Shown here piece by piece: positions 2,949 through 18,415 of a stretch of 64,000 nucleotides of DNA (position 1 is the first letter of the stretch; the number at the start of each line of letters is the position of its first letter). Where the stretch lies: assembly GCF_017347585.1 (NCBI RefSeq), contig NZ_AP024480.1, forward strand, positions 734,001-798,000, given 5' to 3'. Source of the DNA: Caldicellulosiruptor diazotrophicus (lineage in GTDB: Bacteria; Bacillota; Thermoanaerobacteria; Caldicellulosiruptorales; Caldicellulosiruptoraceae). A program made the position numbers and the translations under genes. The notes under the pieces are model-generated. The model saw only the letters and a list, made by a program, of their open reading frames with translations, was not told the origin of the DNA and did not search any database.

Positions 2949-3030
2949 ATCAAAAAACAAAAAAGTTGTGTAGATTCATTTTTTCTTTGACAATTTTTAG
3001 ATGGTAAAAGGGAGAGAAAGGGCAGAGAAG

Positions 3031-3540
3031 ATGCTAAAAAAATTTAAGCCTGACATGATATGCAAAAGTATATTGGATGTTGACCTTGAAACTCTTATAA
3101 AAAGAGGAATAAACTATCTCATTATCGACATAGACAACACCATAGTTGCGTGGGGTGAATTTGATGTAAGAGACGAGATTATTGAGTGGCTTGAAAAGGC
3201 TCAAAAGATGGGATTTAAAATTTGCCTTGTTTCGAACAACCAGAAGGATAGAGTCAAAAAAATAGAAAGTATGCTTGGCATTCCTGCCATCTATAATGCA
3301 AAAAAGCCTTTGAAATCTGGATTTTTAAAAGCATCAATACTGCTTCATCAGGGCAAGAAAAATCATCAAACAGCTGTGATAGGTGACCAGTTTTTTACAG
3401 ATGTCATAGGTGCAAAAAGGTTAAAACTCTTTGTGATATTGGTCCGACCATTAAAAGAAAAGGAGTTTTTTGTAACAAGGATAAACAGGATTTTTGAGAA
3501 GAAAATTCTAAAATATTACGAAAAGGATGAGAGAAAATGA
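3031..3540 (+). CDS. yqeG: YqeG family HAD-IIIA phosphatase
   Basis: This is a HAD-superfamily phosphatase of the YqeG type, 169 residues, the usual size. I chose the ATG at 3031 over the in-frame ATG at 3001 for two reasons. Family members begin MLKKFxPD, and the purine-rich aaagggagagaaaggg stretch that can serve as ribosome-binding site lies between the two codons. The nucleophile motif DIDNT sits at about residues 32-36, motif II is the VSNN segment, and GDQFFTDVIGAK carries the metal-binding acidic residue of motif IV. In Firmicutes yqeG typically sits next to aroE and ribosome-assembly genes; here its stop overlaps the aroE start by 4 nt, so the two are co-translated. The physiological substrate is not established. 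Confidence 0.88.
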   Translation: MLKKFKPDMICKSILDVDLETLIKRGINYLIIDIDNTIVAWGEFDVRDEIIEWLEKAQKMGFKICLVSNNQKDRVKKIESMLGIPAIYNAKKPLKSGFLKASILLHQGKKNHQTAVIGDQFFTDVIGAKRLKLFVILVRPLKEKEFFVTRINRIFEKKILKYYEKDERK

Positions 3541-4388
3541 AAAAGCTTTTTTTGATTGGAAAGAGCTTAAAACACTCAATTTCACCTTTTATTCATAACA
3601 GGATTCTATCTGAGTTTGAGATTGATGCAATTTATTCAAATTTAGAACTCTCTGATACTGAAGAGCTAAAAGAATTTGTTGAGATGGTAAAAAAAGACAA
3701 GGATGTTGTTGGGTTTAACATAACAATACCATACAAGGAAGATATTTTAAAGTTTTGTGATGAAGTCTCAGAAGATGTCAGAATAATAAAAGCGGCAAAT
3801 ACTGTGAAAAAAGAAGATGGGAAGCTTTTGGCTTACAATACAGACTGGATAGGTTTTAAAAAAAGCTTAGAGGATAGGGGGGTTGATGTAAAAGACAAAA
3901 AGATATTGGTACTTGGTAGCGGTGGTGCGGCAAAAGCTTGTATCTACGGACTTTACAGGATGGGTGCAAAAGAAGTGTTTGTTGCAAACAGGACATATGA
4001 GAAGGCAGAAAGGTTAAAAGAGGTTCTTCAAGACATTTTAAAGATACTTCCAATAGAATGGCTAAGAAGATATGAGTTTAAATACGATATAATTATTAAC
4101 ACAACATCTGTGGGAATGTTTCCGAATATTGAAAACAATCCTTTTGACTTTGAAATTTATGAGCAGAGCCCGCCAGTTTTTGTATATGATATGATATACA
4201 ATCCTCTTAAGACCGCCTTTTTGAAGGAAGCTGAAAAGAGAGGGATAAAGACTGAAAACGGACTTAAGATGCTTGTGTACCAAGCAGTTGAAGCTGAAAA
4301 GATTTGGTTTGGTGACATTGATATTGTCTCAAATTTGATTGCTGAAATACTAAATCAATGTGAGAGGAAAGTAGCCCAATTTGAATAA
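3537..4388 (+). CDS. aroE: Shikimate dehydrogenase (NADP+)
   Basis: AroE reduces 3-dehydroshikimate to shikimate, step four of chorismate and aromatic amino acid synthesis. At 283 residues it is normal length. The substrate-binding start KSLKHSISPFIHN (about 9-21), the catalytic lysine in FNITIPYKED (about 60-69), the NADP-binding loop GSGGAAKA (about 127-134), NRTYEKAERL, NTTSVGM and the C-terminal NGLKMLVYQA are all recognisable. Translation starts within the yqeG stop (ATGA overlap). No other aro genes lie nearby, so the gene is dispersed from its pathway. Confidence 0.96.
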   Translation: MKKLFLIGKSLKHSISPFIHNRILSEFEIDAIYSNLELSDTEELKEFVEMVKKDKDVVGFNITIPYKEDILKFCDEVSEDVRIIKAANTVKKEDGKLLAYNTDWIGFKKSLEDRGVDVKDKKILVLGSGGAAKACIYGLYRMGAKEVFVANRTYEKAERLKEVLQDILKILPIEWLRRYEFKYDIIINTTSVGMFPNIENNPFDFEIYEQSPPVFVYDMIYNPLKTAFLKEAEKRGIKTENGLKMLVYQAVEAEKIWFGDIDIVSNLIAEILNQCERKVAQFE

Positions 4389-4415
4389 GTATTTTTGTAA
4401 TTTTCCCAAAAATTT

Positions 4416-4444
4416 TTTTACTTTATGTTATTTTGTGGTATAAT
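4416..4444 (+). promoter_or_regulatory. Promoter of the type IV pilus operon
   Basis: An extended -10, TGG-TATAAT (TATAAT at 4439-4444), has a weak -35 (TTTTAC/TTTACT near 4416-4422). The start site would be about 4451, giving a leader of about 30 nt with Shine-Dalgarno gaggggtg before the first gene of the operon. Confidence 0.65.
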
Positions 4445-4479
4445 TTATATAAGGACATAAATCGAGGGGTGTATCAAAA

Positions 4480-7400
4480 ATGAAAATTATGATAGTTGAT
4501 GATGCTGTATTTATAAGAAAGGTGTTAAAGGGTATTTTAATTGAGCTTGGGTACAATGTTGTAGCAGAAGCCTCAACAGGGAAAGACGCAATAGAACAAG
4601 CTTCTAAAGTAAAGCCAGATATTATTACACTTGATATAACCCTTCCTGACATGAGTGGGATTGATGTTTTAAAAGAGATAAAGAAAATAAATCCAGCCAT
4701 TCAAATAATAATGGTTTCTGCGCTTTCAGGACAGGAAGCTGTAATGCAGGCTTTAAGGGAAGGTGCAGTTAATTATATTACAAAACCGTTCTCAAAAGAA
4801 AAAATAGAAAGTGTATTAAAAAGTGTTTGTGAAAGCATAGAACTTAAGAAAGATGAAGAAAGCAAGAGTGAAAAGAAAGAAAAAGAGGTTATAGGACTTC
4901 AAATAGTTAACTCTGAAGAAACTTCAGAAGGACCAAATTTAGAAGGAGCTATAACACCTGACTTTGAAATAAGTAATTTAGATGAGAAGTTACCAGTAGA
5001 AGAATTAGCAGAAGAAAACACGAAAAATGAGCCATTTTATGAGAACACAAATGTAGAAGAAAATAGAAAAATTGAAAAAGAAGAGATACATATTGATTTT
5101 AAGTCAGATTTGCAGGAAGAAAATAGTAAAGCGAGACTTGAAGATATAAGGGTATTCGAAAAAGACGAAGGATATGTTTTGTCCCTTTATTTTAATGAAC
5201 CTGTAACATACAATTTTGGTAAAATGAAGATTGGTAATGGTTTTATACTTAACGTTGAAGATTGTAAAGTCGACCCAAATGTTAAAGAGACCATAAAGGT
5301 TTCTGATGAGGGTTTAAGAGAGATAAAAGTAGAAGAGATTTCAGGCAATGTTTACATTGCAATTAAAACTGATATACGAAAGTTCAACATACAAGAAAAC
5401 GATAGGATAATTGAGATATTATTACAAAAAGAGACTGCTCGTCTATCCTACAATCCTTTGACAAAACTTTTGCTAATAGAAGGAATATCTTCAAGAAACA
5501 TAGAAGTAGAAAAAGCTGAAAACAACTTAAAAATTAATATCCTGAGCAAAGAGTCAGCATTAAAAGAGGAAGTAATGGAAATTAATGATGGTTTGGTTGA
5601 AATAATTGAAGTGCTCAAGACTTTCAAAGGTTTTGTAGTTCTAGTTAAAAGTTCAAAATTCTTAGAATTTGAAAAGATTGAAGGAAGATCTTCGTTTGGA
5701 ATCAGGTTAAAAGAAGCAAATTTAATCAGGAAATGGAATGTATTTACTAAAGAGGATATGACAATAGTTGAAATAATTTCATCGACTGGGGATGCACAGG
5801 TCCAAATGGAACACGATAAAGAAAATAATAAGTTATATGTATATTTTATAGATTTAGAAGTGCCAGATGAACTTCTGAACAAGCGATATGAATACGAAGA
5901 AGGTTTTATTGAATGGATAGAATTTAAAAAAGATTATGCAAATAAAGCAAAGAGCTACATGATTATATCCACTCCAGTAAGTAAAGTGAGTGTATCTAAA
6001 GAAAATAGCAGAATACTTATTTTATGCAGATCGCAAAGAGCATTTTTGCTTTATGATAACTTGCAAACAAGACTTATTTTCCAGAATATTAAGCCTTCTG
6101 AGATAGAACTTGAGCTTGTTGAAGACAAGAAATTAAGATTTAGTATACTCAATAGATTTGTAAATCTAATAAAAGATTCTATGGTGGAAGAAAATCAGTT
6201 TATTGAAAAAGTAGATATTGAAAGAGTTAGAAATGGTTATGAGGGTCTAATATATCTTAAAAAAAGATGCAGTTTTTATTCTCTTTTGGCTAAAGATAAG
6301 GTATCTACAGATGTTTACCTAACACCTTTGAAAGCACAGAACAAAATCAACTTTTATGAGTACGAAGAAAAAGATAATAAAGCTATTTTGCATATAAGAG
6401 GAGAGGGAGAGTTAAATAAAGAGATTAAAAAAGAAAATGGGGTTATCAGAATTGAAATTCATGATGCTCAATTGGAGAACATATCCACATTACCTGTTGA
6501 GCTTGAGAGCTGTTGTGTTGAAAAAATTGTTTTTAAAGAAGAGGAGAATAATAAAGTTTTAATAGACATTTATTCTTTTAAGGATGATTTTATTGTAAAT
6601 AATCACGAAAAGGGTTTTGATTTAGAATTTGTTCTGGATGTTATAGAAATTCAAGCTTTTGAGAATTTTATTCAGTTCATTGGACTTAATAAAAATGATT
6701 TTATTTTAAAAGAAGTAAGAGAAAACAATCAATTTGAATTAGAAATTAAGAAAAAAGGTATCTTTATTTCCACGGGACTATTCAAAGTTGAAGACAGCCT
6801 TATCAAGAGCTATCAGGTTTATAAGTCTAATGGAAGTTATGGCATTGTAATAAAAACTAATAAAAAGTCAACTGCTATTATAAGTTCTGATGAAGAAAGA
6901 ACTGTTAAAATTATAATGAAAAAACTACCTGAACTTGTAGTATGTGAAGTTGTTGTAAATAGTGAAAATGAAGCATATCTGAAACTTAGTTTTGACTGTG
7001 AGCTATTTAAAGAGCCAGAGATAGAACAAATTGGCAAAGGTATGTTAGAAGTCAAGCTGTCAAAAATTGTATATGACCAGATTGAATTGACTTCTCAGTA
7101 TTATGAGAAAGGAATAATAAAACTTATAGAGTTTATACCTGCTGAGGAAAATTTAAGTATAAGAACAAGCTTTAACCGTGCACAGTGGGAAATAGAATCT
7201 AACTTATCACAAGTTCTTTTAAAGTTTGAAAAAGCAACTTCAAAAGTTGAAATTGATGAAGCTGGTGTTTTAGTAAAGTATATAGATGCAGAGGATATAT
7301 CATACAGGGTTTTTGATGAAAACGGCGTTGTAATATTAGAGGTACCTTCTTATGCAGGTGATTTTGTTAATACTGTTCCAGTTATAAAAAGTGAAAAGAC

Positions 7401-7554
7401 GGTAAAATTTGTCAGCATAGAAAAGATGGAATCTGGGTGGAGAATATATTTGATTACAGTATTAGGTATTAAGTATAACTTAGTAAAAAAACAAGATGAA
7501 ATGAAGATAGAATTTTTGGAAGAAAAATGTGGTTTGAGTGAGATTGCTGGCTAA
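4480..7554 (+). CDS. Response-regulator receiver fused to about eight AMIN-like modules; first gene of pilus operon
   Basis: The 1024-residue protein opens the pilus operon. Residues 1-119 are a complete CheY-like receiver: acidic pair Asp8/Asp9, phospho-acceptor Asp52 in LDITLPDMSG, the Ser in IIMVSALSG and the Lys in INYITKPF. Residues 120-217 form a very acidic, charged linker. From 218 to the end the protein is built of about eight consecutive modules of roughly 95-108 residues. Each has the rhythm of an AMIN domain: a strand reading like VLSLYF, then an ILNVEDCxV-like strand, a turn, then an EIKVEEISGNVYIAI-like hairpin and a final strand. AMIN domains are known from PilQ secretins and amidases, outside the cytoplasm. 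Here there is no signal peptide or membrane segment, so the protein is predicted to be cytoplasmic. No histidine kinase is adjacent. The module call is by eye. Confidence 0.8.
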   Translation: MKIMIVDDAVFIRKVLKGILIELGYNVVAEASTGKDAIEQASKVKPDIITLDITLPDMSGIDVLKEIKKINPAIQIIMVSALSGQEAVMQALREGAVNYITKPFSKEKIESVLKSVCESIELKKDEESKSEKKEKEVIGLQIVNSEETSEGPNLEGAITPDFEISNLDEKLPVEELAEENTKNEPFYENTNVEENRKIEKEEIHIDFKSDLQEENSKARLEDIRVFEKDEGYVLSLYFNEPVTYNFGKMKIGNGFILNVEDCKVDPNVKETIKVSDEGLREIKVEEISGNVYIAIKTDIRKFNIQENDRIIEILLQKETARLSYNPLTKLLLIEGISSRNIEVEKAENNLKINILSKESALKEEVMEINDGLVEIIEVLKTFKGFVVLVKSSKFLEFEKIEGRSSFGIRLKEANLIRKWNVFTKEDMTIVEIISSTGDAQVQMEHDKENNKLYVYFIDLEVPDELLNKRYEYEEGFIEWIEFKKDYANKAKSYMIISTPVSKVSVSKENSRILILCRSQRAFLLYDNLQTRLIFQNIKPSEIELELVEDKKLRFSILNRFVNLIKDSMVEENQFIEKVDIERVRNGYEGLIYLKKRCSFYSLLAKDKVSTDVYLTPLKAQNKINFYEYEEKDNKAILHIRGEGELNKEIKKENGVIRIEIHDAQLENISTLPVELESCCVEKIVFKEEENNKVLIDIYSFKDDFIVNNHEKGFDLEFVLDVIEIQAFENFIQFIGLNKNDFILKEVRENNQFELEIKKKGIFISTGLFKVEDSLIKSYQVYKSNGSYGIVIKTNKKSTAIISSDEERTVKIIMKKLPELVVCEVVVNSENEAYLKLSFDCELFKEPEIEQIGKGMLEVKLSKIVYDQIELTSQYYEKGIIKLIEFIPAEENLSIRTSFNRAQWEIESNLSQVLLKFEKATSKVEIDEAGVLVKYIDAEDISYRVFDENGVVILEVPSYAGDFVNTVPVIKSEKTVKFVSIEKMESGWRIYLITVLGIKYNLVKKQDEMKIEFLEEKCGLSEIAG

Positions 7555-7603
7555 GTTTTTAAGAAGAGATAAGTTGGTAAAGACCAAAAGAAGGTGAATT
7601 CAG

Positions 7604-9301
7604 TTGCCAGTAAATGAAAAGAGAAAAATTGGTGAGCTTTTATTAGAGGCAGGAATTATTACAAGACAGCAACTTGAGGAAGCGCTTCAGATTCAGAAAA
7701 AAACAGGTAAAAAAATAGGCGAAATTCTTGTTGAAAAGGGTTATATTACAGAAGATGAAATTTTAGAAGTTCTGGAATTCCAGCTGGGAATTCCACATGT
7801 TAAGCTTGACCAGTATGTAATTGACCCTGAGGTTGTGAACTTAGTTTCAGAGAGTATAGCAAGAAGGCATACTTTAATTCCAATTCAGCTAAAGGATGAT
7901 AAACTTGTTGTTGCTATGGCAGATCCGCTGAATATATTTGCTATTGAAGATGTTTCGATATACTCAGGCAAAAATGTCCAGCCGGTGATTGCTAAAGCAT
8001 CTGAAATAAAAAGACAAATAGAAAGATTTTACGGTAAGCAAGAAGCTCTAAAAGCTATTGAAGAGCTAAAAAAAGAAGGCTCATCTCAAAGAAAAATCCA
8101 AACAACAAGAATGCAAATAAGTTCAGAAGATGACGTGGAAGGGCCTGTTGTCAAGCTTGTAAATTCTATATTTGAGCAAGCAATAACATCACGTGCAAGT
8201 GATATTCACATTGAACCTTTTGAAAATGAAATTAGAGTTAGGTTTAGAATTGACGGTATACTTTATGATATACTTCAACTTGAGATTGAAACGTTACCAT
8301 CTCTTGTTGCAAGGATAAAGGTTATAGGTAACATGGACATTGCTGAAAAAAGAGTGCCTCAGGATGGTAGAACTACTTTCTTGTTTGCTGACAAGGTATA
8401 TGACATGAGAATTTCTTCACTTCCAACTGTCTACGGTGAGAAGATAGTTATAAGAATTGCTGACAAAGGAGCATTTATTAAATCGAAAACAGATCTTGGT
8501 TTTACAGAAGATGACTTGGAAAAGTATAACAGAATTATATCAGCACCCCATGGTATTATTCTTGTGTGTGGTCCAACTGGAAGTGGAAAGACCACTACCT
8601 TGTACACAATTCTTAATGAGCTTAACACAGGGTTAAAAAACATCATAACAGTAGAAGATCCTGTTGAGAGTACAATATATGGTATAAATCAGGTTGAAGT
8701 AAACCCAAAAGCAGGGCTTACATTTGCAGCAGCCCTGCGTTCTATCTTAAGGCAGGACCCTGACATCATAATGATAGGTGAGATTAGAGATAAAGAAACT
8801 GCTGATATGGCAGTAAGAGCTGCTATCACAGGGCATTTGGTACTTTCCACAATCCATACCAACGATGCACCGTCTGCTGTCACGCGGCTTGTTGATATGG
8901 GTATTGAAAACTTTTTGATAAGTTCGTCACTTGTTGGTGTTATATCTCAAAGACTTATTCGAAAAATTTGCCCATATTGTAAGGAAGAGTACACTCCTAC
9001 CGAAGCAGAACTAAAGGCTCTTGACATAGAAGAAAATTACAATGTAAAATTATACAGAGGAAGAGGTTGTGCACTTTGTAACAATAAAGGATATTACGGC
9101 AGGTCTGGGATATATGAAATAATGATAGTAACAAATCAGATAAAAAGATTAATTGTGAAAAAAGATGTAAGCAGTGATGAAATAAAACAACTTGCTATAA
9201 AAGAAGGAATGAAAACATTGAAAGATGCTTGTAAAGAGAGGGTTTTAAGCGGGATAACTACAGTTGAAGAATTTTTAAGAGTTACATTTTCACTTGAGTG
9301 A
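7604..9301 (+). CDS. pilB: Type IV pilus assembly ATPase PilB
   Basis: PilB is the hexameric motor that drives pilin polymerisation from the cytoplasmic face. At 565 residues it has an N-terminal MshEN/GspE-N type region (about 1-150), a linker, then the secretion ATPase core. Walker A is GPTGSGKT at 323-330, the Asp box/Walker B is PDIIMIGEIRD, and the His box region is STIHTNDAPSA. Two CxxC pairs (CPYC and CALC, about 455-492) form the zinc site typical of GspE/PilB. The start is TTG at 7604 with aaggtga before it; the nearby ATG at 7614 is out of frame. MshEN modules in some homologues bind c-di-GMP, which is worth noting given the c-di-GMP signalling elements elsewhere in the window. Confidence 0.96.
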   Translation: MPVNEKRKIGELLLEAGIITRQQLEEALQIQKKTGKKIGEILVEKGYITEDEILEVLEFQLGIPHVKLDQYVIDPEVVNLVSESIARRHTLIPIQLKDDKLVVAMADPLNIFAIEDVSIYSGKNVQPVIAKASEIKRQIERFYGKQEALKAIEELKKEGSSQRKIQTTRMQISSEDDVEGPVVKLVNSIFEQAITSRASDIHIEPFENEIRVRFRIDGILYDILQLEIETLPSLVARIKVIGNMDIAEKRVPQDGRTTFLFADKVYDMRISSLPTVYGEKIVIRIADKGAFIKSKTDLGFTEDDLEKYNRIISAPHGIILVCGPTGSGKTTTLYTILNELNTGLKNIITVEDPVESTIYGINQVEVNPKAGLTFAAALRSILRQDPDIIMIGEIRDKETADMAVRAAITGHLVLSTIHTNDAPSAVTRLVDMGIENFLISSSLVGVISQRLIRKICPYCKEEYTPTEAELKALDIEENYNVKLYRGRGCALCNNKGYYGRSGIYEIMIVTNQIKRLIVKKDVSSDEIKQLAIKEGMKTLKDACKERVLSGITTVEEFLRVTFSLE

Positions 9302-9364
9302 TTTTAAATGTTCGAGGGGTTTAATTAAAAAGAGTTGAGGATAGAGGAAGGAGGAAAGGCCTAA

Positions 9365-10420
9365 ATGGATATAAACGAGATTTTAAAAGAAGCATTTTTA
9401 AAAGGCGCTTCTGATATACATATCACAGCAGGTTCACCCCCTATCATGAGGGTGCACGGCGTACTTACACGTATGAGCGATTTGAGTCTCACACCAGAGA
9501 TAACTGAAAGGTTTGTAAAAGAAATTACAAATGAATACCAGTACAAACGATTGCAAGAAGCTGGTGAAGTTGATTTTTCTTACAGCATAAGAGGTCTTAG
9601 CAGGTTTAGAGTAAATGCTTTCAAACAAAGAGGATCCTATGCAATTGCGTTTAGGGTTATATCACAGGATATACCTAAATTTGAAACGTTAGGGCTTCCA
9701 TCAATTTTAAAAGATTTTACAAGGCTCAACAAAGGACTTGTGCTTGTTACTGGTCCGACAGGTTCAGGAAAATCAACTACCTTAGCGTCGCTAATAGACA
9801 TAATAAACAGTGAAAGAAACTTACACATTATTACATTGGAAGACCCTATTGAATATCTTCACAGACACAAAAAGAGTATTGTTAACCAAAGAGAAATAGG
9901 GAATGATACTCAAAGTTTTGCGGCAGCCCTGAGAGCTGCTCTTCGTGAGGACCCTGATGTAATTCTGGTTGGCGAGATGAGAGATTTAGAGACAATTTCC
10001 ATAGCACTTACCGCTGCAGAAACCGGGCACTTGGTTTTTTCAACACTTCACACCGTTGGTGCAGCAAAAACAATTGATAGAATCATCGATGTTTTTCCAC
10101 CGTATCAACAGCAGCAGATACGTGTTCAGCTTTCAACTGTGCTTCAGGCAGTTGTCTCGCAACAGCTTTTAACACGTCGAGATGGAAAAGGCAGGGTTGT
10201 AGCTGTTGAAGTTATGATAGCAAATGCGGCGATAAGAAATTTAATAAGAGAAGCAAAAACGTATCAAATACAGTCAATTATTCAGACGCATACTAAAAAT
10301 GGTATGGTAACAATGGAACAATCTCTTGTTGATTTGTATAAAAGAGGGCTTATAACAAGAGAAGATGCAATAATGTATGCATCTGACCAGGAACTTATAA
10401 ACAAGCTTTTGATATTCTAA
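9365..10420 (+). CDS. pilT: Pilus retraction ATPase PilT
   Basis: PilT powers pilus depolymerisation and retraction, and hence twitching and DNA uptake. It is 351 residues, the standard length. Walker A GPTGSGKST starts at residue 130, Walker B is PDVILVGEMRD, the His box is STLHTVGAAKTIDR, and the PilT signature AIRNLIREAKTYQI lies near 275-288. Shine-Dalgarno ggaaggagg precedes the ATG. Having both pilB and pilT here indicates dynamic, retractable pili rather than a static pseudopilus. Confidence 0.96.
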   Translation: MDINEILKEAFLKGASDIHITAGSPPIMRVHGVLTRMSDLSLTPEITERFVKEITNEYQYKRLQEAGEVDFSYSIRGLSRFRVNAFKQRGSYAIAFRVISQDIPKFETLGLPSILKDFTRLNKGLVLVTGPTGSGKSTTLASLIDIINSERNLHIITLEDPIEYLHRHKKSIVNQREIGNDTQSFAAALRAALREDPDVILVGEMRDLETISIALTAAETGHLVFSTLHTVGAAKTIDRIIDVFPPYQQQQIRVQLSTVLQAVVSQQLLTRRDGKGRVVAVEVMIANAAIRNLIREAKTYQIQSIIQTHTKNGMVTMEQSLVDLYKRGLITREDAIMYASDQELINKLLIF

Positions 10421-10439
10421 AGGGGTAGGAAGAATTAAG

Positions 10440-11651
10440 ATGGCAGAGTATGTATACAGTGCAATGGACTCTTCCGGTAAAAAGGTTAGTGGTACAGTAA
10501 TTGCGGAGGATGAGCAATCGGCGATTGAGATTTTAAAAGCAAGAAACGTGTTTGTGTTAGAAATAAAAGAAAAAGGAACACTTCAGAGAGAGATAAAACT
10601 TCCGTTTGGGCAGAGATCAACAGTGAAAGACCTTTCAATCTTTTGCAGACAGTTTGCGACAATGCTCTCAGCAGGTATTTCAATTTTAAGCTGTTTGGAC
10701 GTTTTGCGCCAGCAATACAGAGGACGACCGTTTGGAAAAGTTATTAGTGATATTTATGAAAAGGTTGAAAGAGGAACACTTTTGTCAAGTGCTATGAGAG
10801 AACATCCAAGGTTCTTTCCACCAATTTTAGTGAACATGGTTGAAGCAGGAGAGGTTGCAGGGTCGATTGACAAGTCTATGGACAAGATGGCTACACACTT
10901 TGAAAAGGAGCTTAAACTCAGGCAAAAGATAGTAAATGCTCTCATGTATCCTGCAATTGTTATAAGTGTAGCGGTAATAGTGCTAATAATTCTTTTGACG
11001 TACGTTATTCCAACCTTTGTTGGACTTTTTGAAGAGCTCAATGTTGAACTTCCTGCAACAACAAGGTTTGTGATAAATTCAAGCAAATTCATGCAGCAAA
11101 ACGGGATTTATCTTCTGTTTGCGATTGTAGCATTGGTATTTGGATATAAAGTATTTAAATCAACACCAACAGGTGGGGTTATTGTTGGCAAAATAAAAAT
11201 AAAAATGCCAGTTATAGGAAGGATAATGTTAGGCCAGGTAACCAGCCGTTTCACAAGGACGCTGGCAACACTTTTGAATGCTGGTGTTTCCTTGATAACG
11301 GCTTTGGATACAACAAAAAATATCTTGTCAAACGCCTACATAGAAAAGGAATTTGACAAGGTAATTGAGAGAGTGAAAGGTGGTGAGGGGCTTTCTTATC
11401 CGATTGAGGATATGGGGATTTTTCCAAAGCTTATGAATATTATGTTAAAAACTGGCGAGGAGACAGGACAGCTTGAGTACATGCTTGAAAAAGCAGCAGA
11501 TTACTATGAAAATGAAGTAGAAAATCAGGTCACAAGACTTACATCTCTTTTTGAACCAGTGATGATTGTGCTGCTTGCTTTGATGGTTGGATTTTTGCTT
11601 GCGTCAATCATCATGCCGATGTTCAAGCTCTATGGCAGCATCGGCACATAA
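10440..11651 (+). CDS. pilC: Pilus inner platform protein PilC (GspF family)
   Basis: PilC is the polytopic platform protein that couples PilB/PilT to the pilin shaft. At 403 residues it carries the usual duplicated GspF domain (about 68-190 and 270-393). Membrane segments lie near residues 167-192, 218-238 and 373-396. The N-terminal AEYVYSAMDSSGKKVSGT is the family opening. The gene follows pilT by 19 nt and overlaps none of its neighbours. Confidence 0.95.
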   Translation: MAEYVYSAMDSSGKKVSGTVIAEDEQSAIEILKARNVFVLEIKEKGTLQREIKLPFGQRSTVKDLSIFCRQFATMLSAGISILSCLDVLRQQYRGRPFGKVISDIYEKVERGTLLSSAMREHPRFFPPILVNMVEAGEVAGSIDKSMDKMATHFEKELKLRQKIVNALMYPAIVISVAVIVLIILLTYVIPTFVGLFEELNVELPATTRFVINSSKFMQQNGIYLLFAIVALVFGYKVFKSTPTGGVIVGKIKIKMPVIGRIMLGQVTSRFTRTLATLLNAGVSLITALDTTKNILSNAYIEKEFDKVIERVKGGEGLSYPIEDMGIFPKLMNIMLKTGEETGQLEYMLEKAADYYENEVENQVTRLTSLFEPVMIVLLALMVGFLLASIIMPMFKLYGSIGT

Positions 11652-11667
11652 AAAAGGGCGGTGGCTT

Positions 11668-12090
11668 ATGAAAAGAAAGTTTTGTGGGTTTACTTTAATT
11701 GAACTTGTTGTAGTGATTGCAATAATTGGAGTAATTGTTGCAATTGCAACACCACAGGTTTTAAGGACAATCCAGAATGCTCAAAAAAGAGCAGACAGCC
11801 AAACAGCCCGCCACATTGCGTACGCATTTTTGATGTGGCAGGAAGAAAGCGGGAAGAGCTTGAGTGAAATTATTCCAGATGCTAATTTCCACAAAATTGA
11901 TTCAGACCAAATTGGTGGCGCAAGCGGGTTTAGATTAAGTAAATATATTACAGGAAGCCTGCCAAGGCCAAGGATAAATAAAAATTATTACTTTTATTAC
12001 AAATATGAGTCGTCAGTTTTAAAGATTTATGCGGGTGATGACTCAAATAAGTGGGAACTTTTTCCTGAGTTTGATGGAAATTATAAATAA
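11668..12090 (+). CDS. Type IV prepilin
   Basis: This 140-residue prepilin has a class III signal, MKRKFCG followed by FTLIELVVVIAIIGVIV, with cleavage after Gly7 and Glu at +5. The ATG at 11668 is chosen because it puts the short leader in the normal place; an open frame reading back to 11587 overlaps pilC and is not needed. The globular part ends in a beta-rich tail with YYFYYKY. It is probably a minor pilin, since the next gene has a stronger ribosome-binding site. Release and N-methylation would be done by the peptidase encoded at 12560. Confidence 0.92.
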   Translation: MKRKFCGFTLIELVVVIAIIGVIVAIATPQVLRTIQNAQKRADSQTARHIAYAFLMWQEESGKSLSEIIPDANFHKIDSDQIGGASGFRLSKYITGSLPRPRINKNYYFYYKYESSVLKIYAGDDSNKWELFPEFDGNYK

Positions 12091-12114
12091 AAAAAATAGG
12101 AGGTAGATGTTAAC

Positions 12115-12570
12115 ATGATGGCTTGGCTTGTAAAGCAGGTTAATAATAAGAATAAAGGTTTTACATTGATTGAAATGGTTGTTGTTTTGGCAATAATTGC
12201 GGTACTGATTGCAATTGCTGTTCCACAGGTGTTGAAACAGATTAACAATGCAAAGAAAAACGCAGATATTGCTAATGCAAAAGCAATTGCTACGGCTATC
12301 ATGCAATGGGTAGGTGAAGGAAATTCTATAGGAGCAGATGTAAGTGGTGCTCAAGTTGATGATACAAACGGGACAGTGACATTGAACGGGCAACTTGTAG
12401 ATTTGAAAAAATATATGAATGCAGGTTCATACAAACCAAAGTATAATACAAATTATAAATTCTTTGTTGACTATACCTTGTCTGACGACAAATTGGTAGT
12501 AAAAGCTGGTCAAGCTGCTAGTTCAGCAAAAGAACTTTATCCTAATCCAGACTCAACTTATGGGCAATAA
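12115..12570 (+). CDS. Type IV prepilin, candidate major pilin
   Basis: The 151-residue prepilin has a 15-residue leader ending KNKG and the mature start FTLIEMVVVLAIIAVLIAIAVP. A consensus Shine-Dalgarno (AGGAGGT, 12098-12104) is the best in the operon, which is my reason for calling it the likely major subunit; two adjacent ATG codons (12115, 12118) are possible starts. The globular domain is Asn/Asp-rich and short, as in Clostridia pilins. Its 3' end overlaps the prepilin peptidase gene by 11 nt. Confidence 0.92.
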   Translation: MMAWLVKQVNNKNKGFTLIEMVVVLAIIAVLIAIAVPQVLKQINNAKKNADIANAKAIATAIMQWVGEGNSIGADVSGAQVDDTNGTVTLNGQLVDLKKYMNAGSYKPKYNTNYKFFVDYTLSDDKLVVKAGQAASSAKELYPNPDSTYGQ

Positions 12571-13336
12571 TTTTAATGTAGAGACAGTGATATGTGTATT
12601 TCTTTCCCTCACCCTTGGCAGCTTCCTGAATGTCTGTATATACAGAATTCCTCGGGGGGAGTCGATTGTGTTCCCCCCGAGCCACTGCCCAAAATGTAAA
12701 AAGAGAATAAAGTGGTATGATTTGATGCCCGTTATAAGCTATATAATCTTAAGAGGAAGGTGCAGGTTCTGCAAAGAGAAAATTTCTATAAGATATCCCA
12801 TTGTTGAGCTTTTAACAGCAGCAGGTGGGCTTTTGTGCTACCACAAGTATGGTTTTACGACAGAGATGTTTGTTGCTTTTTTCATTTACTGCATTCTTCT
12901 TTATATCTCAGCAGTTGACATTGACACCATGGAGATTTCAACAAAGAGCGTACTTTTGTTGTTTGCTGCAAGATGTTTGCAGATATTTTTTGAAAGAGGA
13001 GTTAGCATAAAGACTGCTTTGAGCATTTTTTCAGGAATGATTTTCTCAATGCTTTTAATTTTAATAATTTACATTCTGTCTAAAGGCAGGGCAATGGGAT
13101 TTGGAGATGTACTTTTGATTGCGGCGGGCGGAGCAGGATTTACAGCAGGAGAAGCTATTTTAGCAAATTTTCTTGCATTTGTTCTGGGAGCTGTGTTTGC
13201 AGCATTTGTATTGGTAAAGAAGAATAAGAGTTTGAAGAGCGAAGTCCCGTTTGGACCGTTTATATCCGCTGCACTGATTGTCACAATACTATATGGTGAT
13301 ACTATTTTAAAGATGTATTTAGAGTACATAAAATAG
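12560..13336 (+). CDS. pilD: Prepilin peptidase / N-methyltransferase PilD
   Basis: This membrane aspartyl protease removes prepilin leaders and methylates the new N-terminus. At 258 residues it has the N-terminal methyltransferase-type domain with two zinc-binding CxxC pairs (Cys43/Cys46 and Cys68/Cys71) and several membrane segments. The two catalytic aspartates are Asp120 in SAVDIDT and Asp183 in GFGDVLL. It should process all prepilins encoded in this operon. The start lies inside the preceding pilin gene, so the two are translationally coupled. Confidence 0.96.
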   Translation: MGNNFNVETVICVFLSLTLGSFLNVCIYRIPRGESIVFPPSHCPKCKKRIKWYDLMPVISYIILRGRCRFCKEKISIRYPIVELLTAAGGLLCYHKYGFTTEMFVAFFIYCILLYISAVDIDTMEISTKSVLLLFAARCLQIFFERGVSIKTALSIFSGMIFSMLLILIIYILSKGRAMGFGDVLLIAAGGAGFTAGEAILANFLAFVLGAVFAAFVLVKKNKSLKSEVPFGPFISAALIVTILYGDTILKMYLEYIK

Positions 13337-13373
13337 CCTAAAAAAAAATTGAAACAATAGCAAGGGGGCAAAA

Positions 13374-13643
13374 GTGGTGTATACAATAAAAAACTATATG
13401 GAAGAAGCAGTAGGAAACATGATAGATAAAGTTCTTGAAAACATTGATGTTTGCAAGTGTCCAAAGTGCAAACTTGATATTATGGCTTTAGCACTCAACA
13501 GACTTCCACCAAGGTATTTTGTCACAAAAGAAGGAGAGCTTTTTGAAAGACTTTCAGAACTTCAAGAACAATTTACAGTGGACATTACAGCTGCAATTGC
13601 AGCAGCAGCTTTCATTGTAAAAAGCAATCCAAAACATGATTAA
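13374..13643 (+). CDS. ComFB-like small protein
   Basis: This 89-residue protein has the ComFB family pattern: an N-terminal helix NYMEEAVGNMID, then CKCPKCKLDIMALALNRLPPRYF near 33-55 with cysteines that can bind zinc, then a helical C-terminus. ComFB was first seen in competence operons. From memory, ComFB family members in other phyla have been reported as cyclic-dinucleotide receptors; I cannot check that here. It lies between the prepilin peptidase and a pseudopilin, so it is part of the pilus operon. The start is GTG at 13374 (or the adjacent GTG at 13377), after caaggggg. Confidence 0.82.
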   Translation: MVYTIKNYMEEAVGNMIDKVLENIDVCKCPKCKLDIMALALNRLPPRYFVTKEGELFERLSELQEQFTVDITAAIAAAAFIVKSNPKHD

Positions 13644-13670
13644 AGCTTTTAGGAATAGAAGAGGGATAAG

Positions 13671-14276
13671 ATGAAAAGGTTTAAAGGCTTTACCCTGCAG
13701 GAAATGGCAATTGTTTTGGCGATTTTGGCAATCCTTTTAGCAATTGCAGTTCCAAATTATATAGCGATGAAAAAAAGAGCTGATGTAAACAGTGTTGCAA
13801 CCCAGTTTGCTGCAATGATAAGAGAGCTTTATGAAAAGATTGATTCTGAGATGGAATATGACACATATACATCCGCGCCGGGTGGGCATATATCGAAGTA
13901 TTACATAAAGATTGACAACTACTACATTCCTGACCCTGTAACGGGTGAGAGGTCTTTAAAAATCCAGTTGATAAAATTCGATGCAAGTTTTACTCCACAA
14001 GAAACTGTGTTAAAAGATATAAAGTCAAAGACAGTAAAACTTCAAAATGCTTTGGGTTCATCAATATTGATGGACAGTGCCGGTGCTGTTGCAACTTATA
14101 TTACATTCAAACCTAATGGAGAGATAGTAAGATTTACAGGCTCTGTACTTGCAAGAGGAAATGTTAGCACTTTTTCTGCACAGAACAAAATTGAGGTAAT
14201 TCCCGTGTCAGGTCATGGCTACAAAAGGGTAGTAGTGCTAAATAGCGTACCACCAGGGAGCGTTGAAGTGCAATGA
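13671..14276 (+). CDS. Type IV pseudopilin / minor pilin
   Basis: The 201-residue protein has the class III leader MKRFKG and mature start FTLQEMAIVLAILAILLAIAVP (cleavage after Gly6, Glu at +5). The remaining 165 residues are a beta-rich globular domain without recognisable motif. It is likely a minor pilin that primes or caps the fibre. Its stop overlaps the next start by 4 nt. Confidence 0.88.
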   Translation: MKRFKGFTLQEMAIVLAILAILLAIAVPNYIAMKKRADVNSVATQFAAMIRELYEKIDSEMEYDTYTSAPGGHISKYYIKIDNYYIPDPVTGERSLKIQLIKFDASFTPQETVLKDIKSKTVKLQNALGSSILMDSAGAVATYITFKPNGEIVRFTGSVLARGNVSTFSAQNKIEVIPVSGHGYKRVVVLNSVPPGSVEVQ

Positions 14277-14758
14277 AGAGAGTTTTAAAAGGTTTCACAC
14301 TTATTGAAATAATAGCTGTTGTTGCAATTGTTGGGATAATCGTGGTTGCTCTGTACAGCTTTTTTATCAACAATTTTAAGGTAGTTCAAGAAGAGGCAAA
14401 AATTGCTCAAATTGAGTCCCAGGCAAAAAGACTTGAGGATACAATAAAACAGTGGCTGCAGATGGCAGACCAACAGAATATATTGGTATATCCTCTTTCT
14501 AAAAGAATTGATATGATTGTGTATGAAGATAACTCTGCAGTTTCTGGCATAGCTATCTCTATAACGTTTGAACCCTCTACAAAGGGAATTAGGATAACAA
14601 AAAATGGTAATATCACTTCTTTCTTAGATGGAAAAATAATAAACTTTGATGTTGAAGATGTCACACCGCAAATAAAAATTCAATATACAGTTGATTTGGG
14701 AATTCGAGGAAAGACAAGGACATATAAAATTGTATATACCAGACGATATGACTGGTAG
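14273..14758 (+). CDS. Type IV pseudopilin / minor pilin
   Basis: This 161-residue prepilin-like protein has leader MKRVLKG and mature start FTLIEIIAVVAIVGIIVVALYSFF (Glu at +5). A helix with EEAKIAQIESQAKRLEDTI follows, then a beta-rich domain. The ATGA overlap with the preceding minor-pilin gene suggests that the two subunits are made in equal amounts and act together, as GspH/I/J-like sets do. It contains no cysteine for a disulfide-bonded D-region. Confidence 0.88.
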   Translation: MKRVLKGFTLIEIIAVVAIVGIIVVALYSFFINNFKVVQEEAKIAQIESQAKRLEDTIKQWLQMADQQNILVYPLSKRIDMIVYEDNSAVSGIAISITFEPSTKGIRITKNGNITSFLDGKIINFDVEDVTPQIKIQYTVDLGIRGKTRTYKIVYTRRYDW

Positions 14759-14788
14759 AAATCTTATTTTGAGGGGAAAAAGAAGAAT

Positions 14789-15754
14789 ATGAGTACAAAG
14801 GTTGTTATAGAACTTGGCAAAAACTATATTAAGATTGCAGAAGGGAATTTTTCAGGTAATATTCATATAAACAAACTTGCAGAAGAGCAATTAAAGGATA
14901 ATCTCATTATAAATGATATGAAGTTTGAGCCTAATCTTTTTTACGAAACTCTTGGAAATATTTTTTTGAAAAATAACTTTCCAAAAAATAATATAACCTT
15001 TGTTTTGTCAGGCATTTCAAATATGATAATAAGAGAATTGGTAGTGCCATGCCTGAATGAAGAAAAAACTTTTAACCTTATCACATTTGAAGCAAGACAA
15101 TATTTTCCTACAAGTATAGAAAATTATGTTATTGATTATAAGCAATTAAAGGTTTTCAATGAAGGAAAAACAAAAAAGCAGAAAATTTTACTTGTTGCAC
15201 TTGCTAAGAGTCTTATTGAAGATATTGTTACAGTTTCAAACAAGCTGGGGCTCAAAATAAAAAAGATTGATATTGAACCAAACACAATATCAAAGCTTGT
15301 TGATTTAGAAAGAAAAGTTAGGAAAGAAGCAGAAAAAGAGCTTATAATGCTTGTAAACATTGTACGTTCTTTCATTACTATTGTAATAATAAATCAGGGG
15401 GAAATTGTTCTTTCCAAGTCTTTTCCCAATTATGATTTAGAAAGAATGTTCAATGAGGAAGAAGACTCAGAAGCTTTCATAGAATACTTTTATACATATA
15501 CTATAAATGAGATTGTTGAGAATATTTCAAAATTCTACGAGTTTTATAGAAACAGAGAACAGGATAGCAAAGAACTTTCAAAGGTATATTTAATGGGGGA
15601 AGTTTGCCAGCATATAGATATAAGCGATATGCTAAAAACTAAGATAAACGCACAAATGGTATTGCTTACAGATCTTATATCAATTGACAAAAAAATATTA
15701 CTTACAAAAAGTGAAGTTTGTAACTATTTTACAACAATTAGTGGAATCCTATAG
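14789..15754 (+). CDS. pilM: Pilus assembly protein PilM-like (actin fold)
   Basis: PilM is the cytoplasmic actin-like ATP-binding protein that docks on the N-terminus of PilN and links the ATPases to the membrane alignment complex. At 321 residues, the phosphate-1-like start VVIELGKNYIKIAEG and the PilM-type segment FEARQYFPTSIENYVIDYKQL (about 99-119) support the call, as does its position directly before pilN and pilO. Sequence divergence from proteobacterial PilM is high. Confidence 0.82.
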   Translation: MSTKVVIELGKNYIKIAEGNFSGNIHINKLAEEQLKDNLIINDMKFEPNLFYETLGNIFLKNNFPKNNITFVLSGISNMIIRELVVPCLNEEKTFNLITFEARQYFPTSIENYVIDYKQLKVFNEGKTKKQKILLVALAKSLIEDIVTVSNKLGLKIKKIDIEPNTISKLVDLERKVRKEAEKELIMLVNIVRSFITIVIINQGEIVLSKSFPNYDLERMFNEEEDSEAFIEYFYTYTINEIVENISKFYEFYRNREQDSKELSKVYLMGEVCQHIDISDMLKTKINAQMVLLTDLISIDKKILLTKSEVCNYFTTISGIL

Positions 15755-15790
15755 CACTTTAGTTTTCATATTACTGAGGAGAGATAATGA

Positions 15791-16330
15791 ATGGCAAAAA
15801 AACTGAAAGATATAAATCTTTTGTTGGCATATGAAAGAGGGATAAAAAAGAAAGATGCAACGCTTAGAGTATATTTTTTGGTGTTTATATTGGAGATATG
15901 CTTATTTGCGTTAATTGCTTCTATTTATTTGACTAAAATAATGACTACGAATAATGATATCAAAAGATTGAGTGACGAAATAAGAATAAAGCAGCAACAA
16001 ATGGTAGAAGCACAAAGACTTGTTGAGAAAAAAACACTGGATACACAAAAGAGAGCTTTACTTGAATATGTATCAAAAAACCACATAAAGTATTTAGAAA
16101 TTTTGGACAAGCTTGAGGCATTAGCACCTATAAATCTAAAGTTTGAAAGCTTGAATCTTTCAACTGAAAAAATTACATGTACAGTGAAGGCAGATACACT
16201 TGAAACAGTGACACAGTTTGTTTACAACCTTCAAACAAGTAATTACTTTATGAACGTAAATTTTAGTAGTGTAACTGGAGATGAAAGTTCAAAAACTTCA
16301 ACAATATCAGCAGACATAGCAAGGAAGTGA
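15791..16330 (+). CDS. pilN: Pilus assembly protein PilN-like
   Basis: This 179-residue bitopic membrane protein has a short cytoplasmic N-terminus KDINLLLAYERG that matches the PilM-binding INLLP-type motif. One membrane helix lies at about 26-48, then a coiled coil at about 50-80, then a small ferredoxin-like domain. PilN with PilO forms the alignment subcomplex. In an organism without outer membrane it would face the wall side of the membrane. Confidence 0.85.
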   Translation: MAKKLKDINLLLAYERGIKKKDATLRVYFLVFILEICLFALIASIYLTKIMTTNNDIKRLSDEIRIKQQQMVEAQRLVEKKTLDTQKRALLEYVSKNHIKYLEILDKLEALAPINLKFESLNLSTEKITCTVKADTLETVTQFVYNLQTSNYFMNVNFSSVTGDESSKTSTISADIARK

Positions 16331-16336
16331 GAAAAA

Positions 16337-17596
16337 GTGCAAATCACAGACAGAGATAAAAAACTTTTAGTAATTCTTGGTATGGTTATTATTGGATTTT
16401 TGTTTTATAACTTTTTCTATACTCCTTATTCTCAAAAGCTTAGTAATTTAATTTCAGAAAAGCAACAGTTAGAAAGTAAGCTAAGTGAAATAGATCAGAA
16501 GATTGCTATTTATAATCTTCAAAAACAAAAGTTAAAAGAAGTTGAAAAAGACTATATGTCTATAAGTCAAAAAATTCCGCCCAATCAAGACGAAAAATTT
16601 TCAATGCTTGATTTGCAAAGGCTTGCTCAGATGGTTGGGAGTAAAACCTCAGACTTTACATTTTCGCAAAGACAGAGCCTAAATGTTACTTATAACAATA
16701 TTAATATTGCAAAAGCATACTTTTATTCATCTAAACAAAACTGGCAAATGACATATGCTAACTTCAAAAAATTATTGTTTTTGCAAAAGGAATTTGAACC
16801 TTTGTATTCTGTCGATTCAATCTCGTTGTCAGGCGGGAATAACAACATGATAACAGCAAGTTTTGAAATTAAATTTTATGGTTTTGAAGATACGCTTGCT
16901 CCTGAAAGGAAATGGCAAAACTTTGCAATTTCATATGGTAAAGGCGATTTGTTCAGTGGTGGATCTGGGCAAAAGGCCAAGTTTATCTATACTCAAGAAG
17001 ATTTAAAAAAAAATGAAATTACAAAACAGTCATCAGCCTTAAAAGTGGAAAGAACAGATAATATGTCTTTAACAAATGCAGAAACCAGTTTTAAGTTACC
17101 ACAAAACAATAAAAATATCACTTTTAACGAAAAAAGTGCAAGCACTAAAGACCAAAGTCAATTATCAGAAGAGAAAGTAGATTTTAATAAAGCAGATTTT
17201 GTTGTAACAGTATCAACTTTATATTCTCCTACAACCAATGTAACTATTGAAAAAACTCAAAAAGGTTCAATATTTGGTGCTAAAAAGAAAAGTGAAAATG
17301 CTTTTATAACAATTAAAAAAGAAGGTGACAAGTATTATTACAGGATTGGTACTCAGGCAAGCGAATATCCCCAAGCTAATAAATTTGACATTTTGGATTT
17401 GCAGGATAAAAGCCAGATTTTAATTGTGGTATTTTCAACCCCAAGAAAATACAAAGATGATGAGAATGTAGTAACTCTTAAAGTAACTAATAGTTCTGAT
17501 AAACCAGTAAAAATTTATATTTCAGGTGATGATAAGCAAAAACCAAGAGTGAACATTGCACCAAGTGGATTTGATATTAGCGTTGTGAGAAAATAA
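16337..17596 (+). CDS. pilO: Pilus assembly protein PilO-like with extra C-terminal domain
   Basis: Residues 1-190 look like PilO: a membrane helix at about 11-31, a coiled coil at about 32-75, and a small alpha/beta domain. The protein then runs on to 419 residues, about twice the usual PilO size. The extra part has a polar low-complexity linker (about 220-285) and a beta-rich tail domain (about 290-419; KADFVVTVSTLYSPTTNVTIE and VVTLKVTNSSDKPVKIYISG) of unknown family. The start is GTG at 16337, 6 nt after pilN. The extension could contact peptidoglycan or the S-layer where Gram-negatives would use PilP/PilQ; this is a guess. Confidence 0.78.
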   Translation: MQITDRDKKLLVILGMVIIGFLFYNFFYTPYSQKLSNLISEKQQLESKLSEIDQKIAIYNLQKQKLKEVEKDYMSISQKIPPNQDEKFSMLDLQRLAQMVGSKTSDFTFSQRQSLNVTYNNINIAKAYFYSSKQNWQMTYANFKKLLFLQKEFEPLYSVDSISLSGGNNNMITASFEIKFYGFEDTLAPERKWQNFAISYGKGDLFSGGSGQKAKFIYTQEDLKKNEITKQSSALKVERTDNMSLTNAETSFKLPQNNKNITFNEKSASTKDQSQLSEEKVDFNKADFVVTVSTLYSPTTNVTIEKTQKGSIFGAKKKSENAFITIKKEGDKYYYRIGTQASEYPQANKFDILDLQDKSQILIVVFSTPRKYKDDENVVTLKVTNSSDKPVKIYISGDDKQKPRVNIAPSGFDISVVRK

Positions 17597-17615
17597 AGTG
17601 GGGTGACGAGCAAGC

Positions 17616-18413
17616 ATGAAACAATTAAAAGGGTTTACTCTTGTTGAGGTTATTGTGACAGTTGCAGTATTTGCACTGTTTGTCACCCCCATAGTGTTAC
17701 TTATTCAGCAGTCGTTGAAGGTAAACATTAGTGCAAAGACAAATCTTGAAGTTGCTGAAGTTATAAATCAAGCTGTTGAAAATCTTGTATATCAAAATGT
17801 TTATGGCACAGGTTCTTTGAATATAAATGGATATACAGTAAACTACGAGATTGACGATTCATTTAAAACGGGAACTATTCAAAATATTGAAAACAGCCAA
17901 ATAGATTTTAGAATATATTTAGATGCGACAGGTAAACTGACAATCGAGGATTTGGCAACTCATAATACCTATGAAAGACAAATATCTTCTAGTACATTTG
18001 ACAAACTTAGAATACAGATAAGATATGACGAAGCAACCAAGAGGGCGACATATACTTTTGTCCTAAATGGTTCACCAATTATAACTTTTTTAAGTGGAAA
18101 CAGTACAGAACCTGCCAAACTTGGAGCAGAGTTTGTATGTGACACTTTATCACATTTTCTCTATGTAGTAATTGATGGTGTGTATGACCTCTCAAATAAA
18201 CTTACTACTACTATGTTCAATCTTTGGCTGACGAATGTTAACAATAATATCAAAATCCTTGCAACAACTCCATTCATTGTCTATGATAATTCTCCGAGAC
18301 ATTCTGTTCTTACAGGCGTAGAAAGGGTAAGGCAGATTTCTTTAAAAATTTATGATTTAAATGGTCAGTTTATTAAAGAATATACAACATATTATACTCA
18401 CAGGGTGAAGTAG
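17616..18413 (+). CDS. Prepilin-like protein (PilW/PulJ type)
   Basis: This 265-residue prepilin has leader MKQLKG and mature start FTLVEVIVTVAVFALFVTPIVLLIQQ (Glu at +5). The proline after the first half of the helix and the longer globular domain resemble PilW/PulJ-type minor pilins. It lies 2 nt before the large PilX-like gene, mirroring the pilW-pilX order of other T4P minor-pilin clusters. Confidence 0.85.
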   Translation: MKQLKGFTLVEVIVTVAVFALFVTPIVLLIQQSLKVNISAKTNLEVAEVINQAVENLVYQNVYGTGSLNINGYTVNYEIDDSFKTGTIQNIENSQIDFRIYLDATGKLTIEDLATHNTYERQISSSTFDKLRIQIRYDEATKRATYTFVLNGSPIITFLSGNSTEPAKLGAEFVCDTLSHFLYVVIDGVYDLSNKLTTTMFNLWLTNVNNNIKILATTPFIVYDNSPRHSVLTGVERVRQISLKIYDLNGQFIKEYTTYYTHRVK

Positions 18414-18415
18414 AT

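Follow-up and report, generated by a model that had tools for sequence, protein, structure and literature searches.

Proteins that join a CheY-type receiver to a non-DNA-binding output and are tied to type IV pilus control are described in cyanobacteria, where they form the PATAN-CheY group (PixG, PixE and LsiR). PixE reportedly interacts with PilB1 (PMC7690835, citing its reference 61). The PilG and PilH receivers of the Pseudomonas Chp pathway likewise control type IV pili through a chemotaxis-like system (PMC10519157), but they are single-domain receivers and have no output domain. AMIN domains are familiar from the opposite side of the membrane: those of PilQ place the pilus machine at polar peptidoglycan, and those of PilQ, AmiB and AmiC are peptidoglycan binders located outside the cytoplasm (PMC10653833). 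We describe here a gene directly before pilB whose product combines a receiver with AMIN-like modules. Our literature search, which had most subscription journals outside its range, found no publication naming both an AMIN domain and a receiver domain, and the two records naming an AMIN domain, a response regulator and type IV pili together were, by title and abstract, on other topics. The first-pass annotation of this DNA had likewise known of no described system of this type. The protein is a CheY-type regulator that probably acts on type IV pili, and its output domain is one for which no such role has been described.

The gene occupies positions 4480..7554 (+ strand) of the window, by which we mean the whole 64,000-nucleotide stretch of Caldicellulosiruptor diazotrophicus DNA that was analyzed, and encodes a protein of 1024 amino acids, referred to below as REC-(A-B)x4. 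A ribosome-binding site, GAGGGG, can be read from the sequence 10 nt upstream of the ATG (4464..4469, +), and a sigma-70-like promoter, TTTACT-16-TATAAT with a TG preceding the second hexamer, is found at 4417..4444 (+); the latter is a consensus match only, and promoter-consensus matches across the whole upstream region are not above those in shuffled sequence. Orthologs are present in 11 of the 12 genomes of the genus (own genome included) and in one sister-genus genome. The gene is under purifying selection, with a dN/dS ratio of 0.14-0.15 in the module region and 0.08-0.09 in the receiver. The promoter match, the GAGGGG site, the orthologs and purifying selection together identify the ORF as a real gene.

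Residues 1-118 (4480..4833, +) make up a CheY-type receiver domain, with a PF00072 match that spans residues 3-113 (E 8.7e-29) and with D7, D8, D52, S/T80 and K102 retained in 12/12 orthologs. The receiver is complete and of CheY type; in NCBIfam its strongest partial matches are to CheB and CheY, none of them reaching the curated thresholds set for the full proteins. A receiver tree, whose inner support is modest, places it with an orphan CheY-like receiver from its own genome (L083), in a wider group that also contains a CheY beside flagellar genes (L082) and a CheY beside CheA (L084). The orphan (L083 1456-1887, at C1:2364933) is 143 aa long and, at 47-48% identity, is the closest single-domain relative of the REC-(A-B)x4 receiver in that genome. 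No PATAN domain is present in REC-(A-B)x4 among the Pfam matches or the NCBIfam matches listed. Because no kinase gene was recognized adjoining the REC-(A-B)x4 gene, CheA, whose gene adjoins a CheY elsewhere in the genome, is put forward only as a candidate phosphodonor. The receiver is followed by an acidic linker (residues 120-216; 4837..5127, +) with 30 D/E vs 12 K/R, which evolves nearly freely (dN/dS 0.7-1.1) and is missing from the sister-genus ortholog. The complete, phosphorylatable receiver and the acidic linker are both as the first-pass annotation had read them.

The remainder of the protein had been described as eight repeated beta modules. The count of eight stands, with lengths of 97-106 residues (n=8), but the modules are not equivalent to one another. 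A self-dotplot of the window protein alone gave no internal-repeat signal over shuffles, identity between modules being too low; we therefore split profiles of the 12 orthologs into the eight modules and aligned these with each other and with an AMIN alignment. Modules matched one another in register over their full length, at P values as low as 1e-11. Odd-numbered modules, which we call type A, comprise module 1 (residues 219-318; 5134..5433), module 3 (416-521; 5725..6042), module 5 (619-720; 6334..6639) and module 7 (819-919; 6934..7236), all on the + strand. They match one another over nearly their full length (1-3, 1-5, 3-5, 1-7 and 5-7, P 1e-10 to 2e-5), with only the 3-7 pair weak; module 3 matches module 1 at full length (P 1e-9), module 5 matches module 1 (P 1e-10), and module 7 matches modules 1 and 5 (P 2e-5 to 2e-7). 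Type B comprises the even-numbered modules 2 (319-415; 5434..5724), 4 (522-618; 6043..6333), 6 (721-818; 6640..6933) and 8 (920-1018; 7237..7533), also on the + strand, which match one another in every pairing (2-6, 2-4, 6-8, 4-6, 4-8 and 2-8, P 1e-11 to 4e-4): modules 4 and 6 match module 2 with P 4e-9 to 4e-7 and P 1e-11, respectively, and module 8 matches module 6 (P 3e-7 to 1e-6) and module 4 (P 3e-5 to 4e-5). Odd-even matches are mostly weak, the best of them (6-1, 8e-5) covering half a module. Since odd matches odd, even matches even and most odd-even pairs are weak, the array consists of an A-B pair, ~200 residues long, repeated four times, and not of eight equivalent units.

The REC-(A-B)x4 gene heads a type IV pilus operon, as first annotated. 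It is followed after 49 nt by pilB, and the order continues with pilT, pilC, pilins, pilD, pilM, pilN and a pilO-like gene. On the + strand of the window these are pilB, the extension ATPase, with an N-terminal MshEN domain (7604..9301; PF00437 E 1.5e-137, PF05157 E 5e-25); pilT, the retraction ATPase, assigned by position and homology (9365..10420; PF00437 E 2e-52); pilC, the platform protein (10440..11651; PF00482 E 2e-66); pilD, the prepilin peptidase (12560..13336; PF06750 and PF01478); and pilM, pilN and the pilO-like gene (14789..17596; PilM_2 E 6e-16, PilN E 6.5e-8, T2SSM E 2e-5). MshEN is a c-di-GMP-binding domain in other systems, and given its presence in PilB, the operon may have two signal inputs. 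At its end, after a pilX-like gene, a VWA-domain protein is encoded at 21216-23219, possibly a pilus-tip adhesin. No secretin (PF00263) was found in the genome, in line with the earlier view of a cell that lacks PilQ.

Linkage to pilB, which had been proposed as a check, held within the genus and not beyond it. The REC-(A-B)x4 gene is directly 5' of pilB in 7/7 inspected gene-bearing operons (the window and six others), with a spacing that ranges from 50 nt down to a 4-nt overlap (in G006); by coordinates, pilB adjoins it in four further genomes, for a total of 11/12. In the remaining genome (G005), the pilus operon is whole, pilB comes immediately after aroE, and there is no REC-(A-B)x4 gene. 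In the sister genus, too, aroE and pilB are adjacent at the pilus operon, and the REC-(A-B)x4 ortholog is elsewhere, between galE and rho. The gene is thus not a required part of the pilus machine; it is an accessory placed before pilB in the genus lineage. A scan of genome contigs returned receiver matches only, and among the 80 proteins listed, none had AMIN or the module profile and none had a pilB relative at the locus.

These exceptions are what favors the best-surviving alternative to a role in piliation, namely, that REC-(A-B)x4, while a CheY-type regulator of the cytoplasm, works with a different partner (e.g., wall-synthesis or chemotaxis proteins) and that the gene was inserted locally before pilB and is kept there by co-transcription. 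The galE-rho location in the sister genus, the G005 pilus genes without REC-(A-B)x4 and a linkage known within one genus only all speak for such a passenger. However, the linkage persists where the upstream neighbor of the gene is not aroE, and it has outlasted divergence of the module region to 28-30% identity between two lineages. In the same comparison, identity is 29-45% for pilM/pilN/pilO, 59-62% for the receiver and 74-80% for pilB/pilT; the module region thus diverges about as fast as pilM/pilN/pilO, which also speaks against the passenger reading. We consider that reading somewhat unlikely.

Separate observations concern the history of the operon itself. Comparison of G005 (L149 6994-19503) with the window (3001-21112) showed that the HAD gene is 96% identical, aroE 75% and the pil genes 33-78%, and G005 has one pilin between pilC and pilD vs two in the window; from these sequences, the G005 pilus operon looks to have been exchanged by recombination starting near aroE. 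Between two close genomes (G009 and G010), synonymous divergence is 1.3-2.2 for pilM/pilN/pilO vs 0.3-0.7 for aroE and the receiver-AMIN gene, an excess that can be taken as a sign of a mosaic operon.

The modules had been called AMIN-like in the first-pass annotation, an assignment that is supported by independent routes, namely, profile comparison, a genome search and a fold match. Pfam AMIN (PF11741) scores the window protein under its curated cut-off (11.0 vs 20.5 bits) and no single module passes, while in the sister-genus ortholog (L100), it exceeds the cut-off (23.3 vs 20.5 bits) at about module 3. Against a reference alignment of 29 AMIN domains taken from relatives, hhalign matched module 1 over 94 columns (E 7.8e-7), module 5 (P 2e-5), module 6 (P 2.5e-4), module 2 (P 0.0021, i.e., 2e-3) and module 7 (P 0.02); modules 3, 4 and 8 were not significant alone and are linked to AMIN only via other modules. 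Controls with shuffled columns had a mean score near 10 (sd ~2); module 1 scored 38.6 and module 5 scored 31.6, which corresponds to z-scores of 13-16. Pooled by type, A modules matched AMIN with E 1.9e-7 and B modules with E 1.2e-5. When the family profile was run against 398 genomes of the phylum, just three matches outside the family had E < 0.001 (9e-8, 2.6e-7 and 2e-5), and all three, judged from their sequences, read as exported AMIN-Amidase_3 proteins.

The sister-genus ortholog points to where the modules came from. L100 carries a C-terminal Amidase_3 domain (PF01520, E 2.9e-35) and so has the AMIN-then-Amidase_3 order, the classic order of AMIN amidases. The same domain order is seen in exported Firmicutes AMIN-Amidase_3 proteins (such as L119, within the genus, and L153), which also have AMIN modules in a row; unlike REC-(A-B)x4, they have an apparent signal sequence, no receiver and few modules only, and they keep the catalytic Glu. 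The roles of the amidase zinc ligands and of this Glu are well known. In the aligned sequence of the L100 amidase domain, three zinc ligands are kept, and Gln stands where six other aligned amidases carry the catalytic Glu. The Amidase_3 domain is missing from the orthologs within the genus. Two genes after the receiver-AMIN-amidase gene of the sister genus, with rho between, is a stand-alone Amidase_3 of 186 aa (L136 9718-10278, E 1e-63). AMIN amidases are widespread among relatives and the receiver fusion was found in the REC-(A-B)x4 family only, from which we infer the direction of change, amidase to receiver fusion. Most likely, the ancestor of REC-(A-B)x4 was an exported wall amidase with several AMIN modules, which acquired a receiver and became cytoplasmic.

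The polar residues that mark exported AMIN domains have not survived this change. P-x-R-[IVL] is present in 20/29 and R-[VIM]-V-x-[DE] in 26/29 of the reference domains, and neither occurs in the modules of the 12 orthologs; a third motif, I-R-x-x-Q, has one occurrence in each of two orthologs. The hallmark motifs are thus essentially absent from the modules, and motif loss, the Glu-to-Gln change and loss of the amidase together have the pattern of a wall enzyme that has been remade into a scaffold. The same facts bear on the idea that the modules still recognize wall material, binding cytoplasmic precursors, recycled muropeptides or inner-leaflet lipid II and so coupling wall growth to pilus assembly. 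AMIN ancestry and the zinc ligands of the sister-genus amidase fit such a sensor; however, hallmark residues that are gone from all modules, a catalytic position that is Gln in L100 and an amidase domain that is absent in the genus do not, and we regard it as improbable.

Structure prediction, which had been suggested as a check, returned no unrelated fold. The AF2 model of module 1, whose alignment input was the four divergent A modules of the window protein only, is all beta with pLDDT 74 and pTM 0.65 (pLDDT across all five models, 37-74). Its top Foldseek matches in the PDB were PilQ B2 (4AQZ), PilQ (4AV2) and AmiC (4BIN), ranks 1-3 of 350,542 chains with probability 1.00. The match reflects local structure order more than exact geometry, since the TM-score to PilQ and AmiC is 0.39-0.43 (0.43 to PilQ) with high rmsd. 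The B-type model, made for module 2 and likewise built on four divergent module sequences of the window protein, also has pLDDT 74; small heat-shock proteins rank first by E-value, and the PilQ AMIN domain has the best TM-score among the matches listed (0.56, rmsd 4.4). The family profile found no match among the sequences of solved structures. We conclude from these models, which are of moderate confidence, that the modules probably adopt the all-beta AMIN fold of PilQ and AmiC. That they are instead generic beta repeats unrelated to AMIN, as the Pfam scores of the window protein (0 modules over the cut-off) and the heat-shock ranking might suggest, is very improbable, given that L100 is over the AMIN cut-off, that genome search, hhalign and the module 1 fold search converge on AMIN and that PilQ leads by TM-score for the B model.

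What the modules share with the AMIN domains of PilQ, AmiB and AmiC is thus their fold and a remote homology in sequence, and the resemblance ends there: those of REC-(A-B)x4 are apparently cytoplasmic, eight in number and of two types, they miss the hallmarks, and the genome is without a secretin. The stop-to-stop frame exceeds the ORF by nine codons only, so that an export signal cannot be added upstream; an upstream start adding one was excluded for this reason. By the usual reading of 19-residue windows, there is no membrane helix (maximum Kyte-Doolittle mean 1.6), consistent with the earlier claim that the protein has neither signal peptide nor helix. Without an export signal and with 8 Cys in the module region, REC-(A-B)x4 is predicted to be cytoplasmic, away from the exported, envelope-facing location of AMIN domains. 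Leaderless export, with the modules acting in the wall like those of PilQ, has in its favor solely the usual location of AMIN domains (PMC10653833) and is hardly credible beside the lack of a signal and membrane helix, the conserved receiver residues and the Cys-containing modules.

We favor, with a probability of about 0.5, a model in which REC-(A-B)x4 is a cytoplasmic CheY-type regulator derived from an exported multi-AMIN amidase and serves as a phosphorylation-gated adaptor of the inner pilus machine. The receiver, the fold and ancestry of the modules, the A-B periodicity, the absent export signal and the operon linkage are its computed parts. The phosphodonor, the partner and the effect on pili are its inferred parts. 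In the history that the model proposes, the receiver would have replaced the export signal of the amidase, the AMIN modules would have lost their hallmark residues, and the amidase domain would have decayed (as in the sister genus) and later been lost (in the genus). The output of the receiver would then be the four A-B pairs of AMIN-fold modules, arranged as a rod or scaffold. Once a histidine kinase (CheA or another) had phosphorylated Asp52, the receiver would, by way of the flexible linker, change how it contacts the modules or a partner, and the module rod would bind the inner pilus machine (PilB, PilC or PilM) and tune or localize it. The first-pass annotation had suggested that such an adaptor could organize PilB/PilT/PilM. 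The function of PilQ-type AMIN domains is not simply transferable, since there is no secretin and the modules sit across the membrane from those of PilQ. An adaptor role at the pilus motor would instead parallel that of the PATAN-CheY proteins; this is an analogy and not output-domain homology, as the PATAN output is not built of AMIN modules, has no long repeat array and belongs to another phylum. In its fuller and more tentative form, which we hold at a little under even odds, a CheY receiver captured a wall amidase, whose multiplied AMIN modules became a phospho-gated cytoplasmic scaffold that assembles or gates a secretin-less type IV pilus motor.

With the natural G005 operon that lacks the gene, and with the ortholog that still bears an amidase, the question can be put to a direct test. 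If the model is true, REC-(A-B)x4 would regulate type IV pili in a secretin-less bacterium, a setting in which little is known of how pilus assembly is controlled. The family would then also be a clear case, documented by an amidase-bearing intermediate, in which an extracellular domain for wall binding was turned into a signaling scaffold of the cytoplasm.
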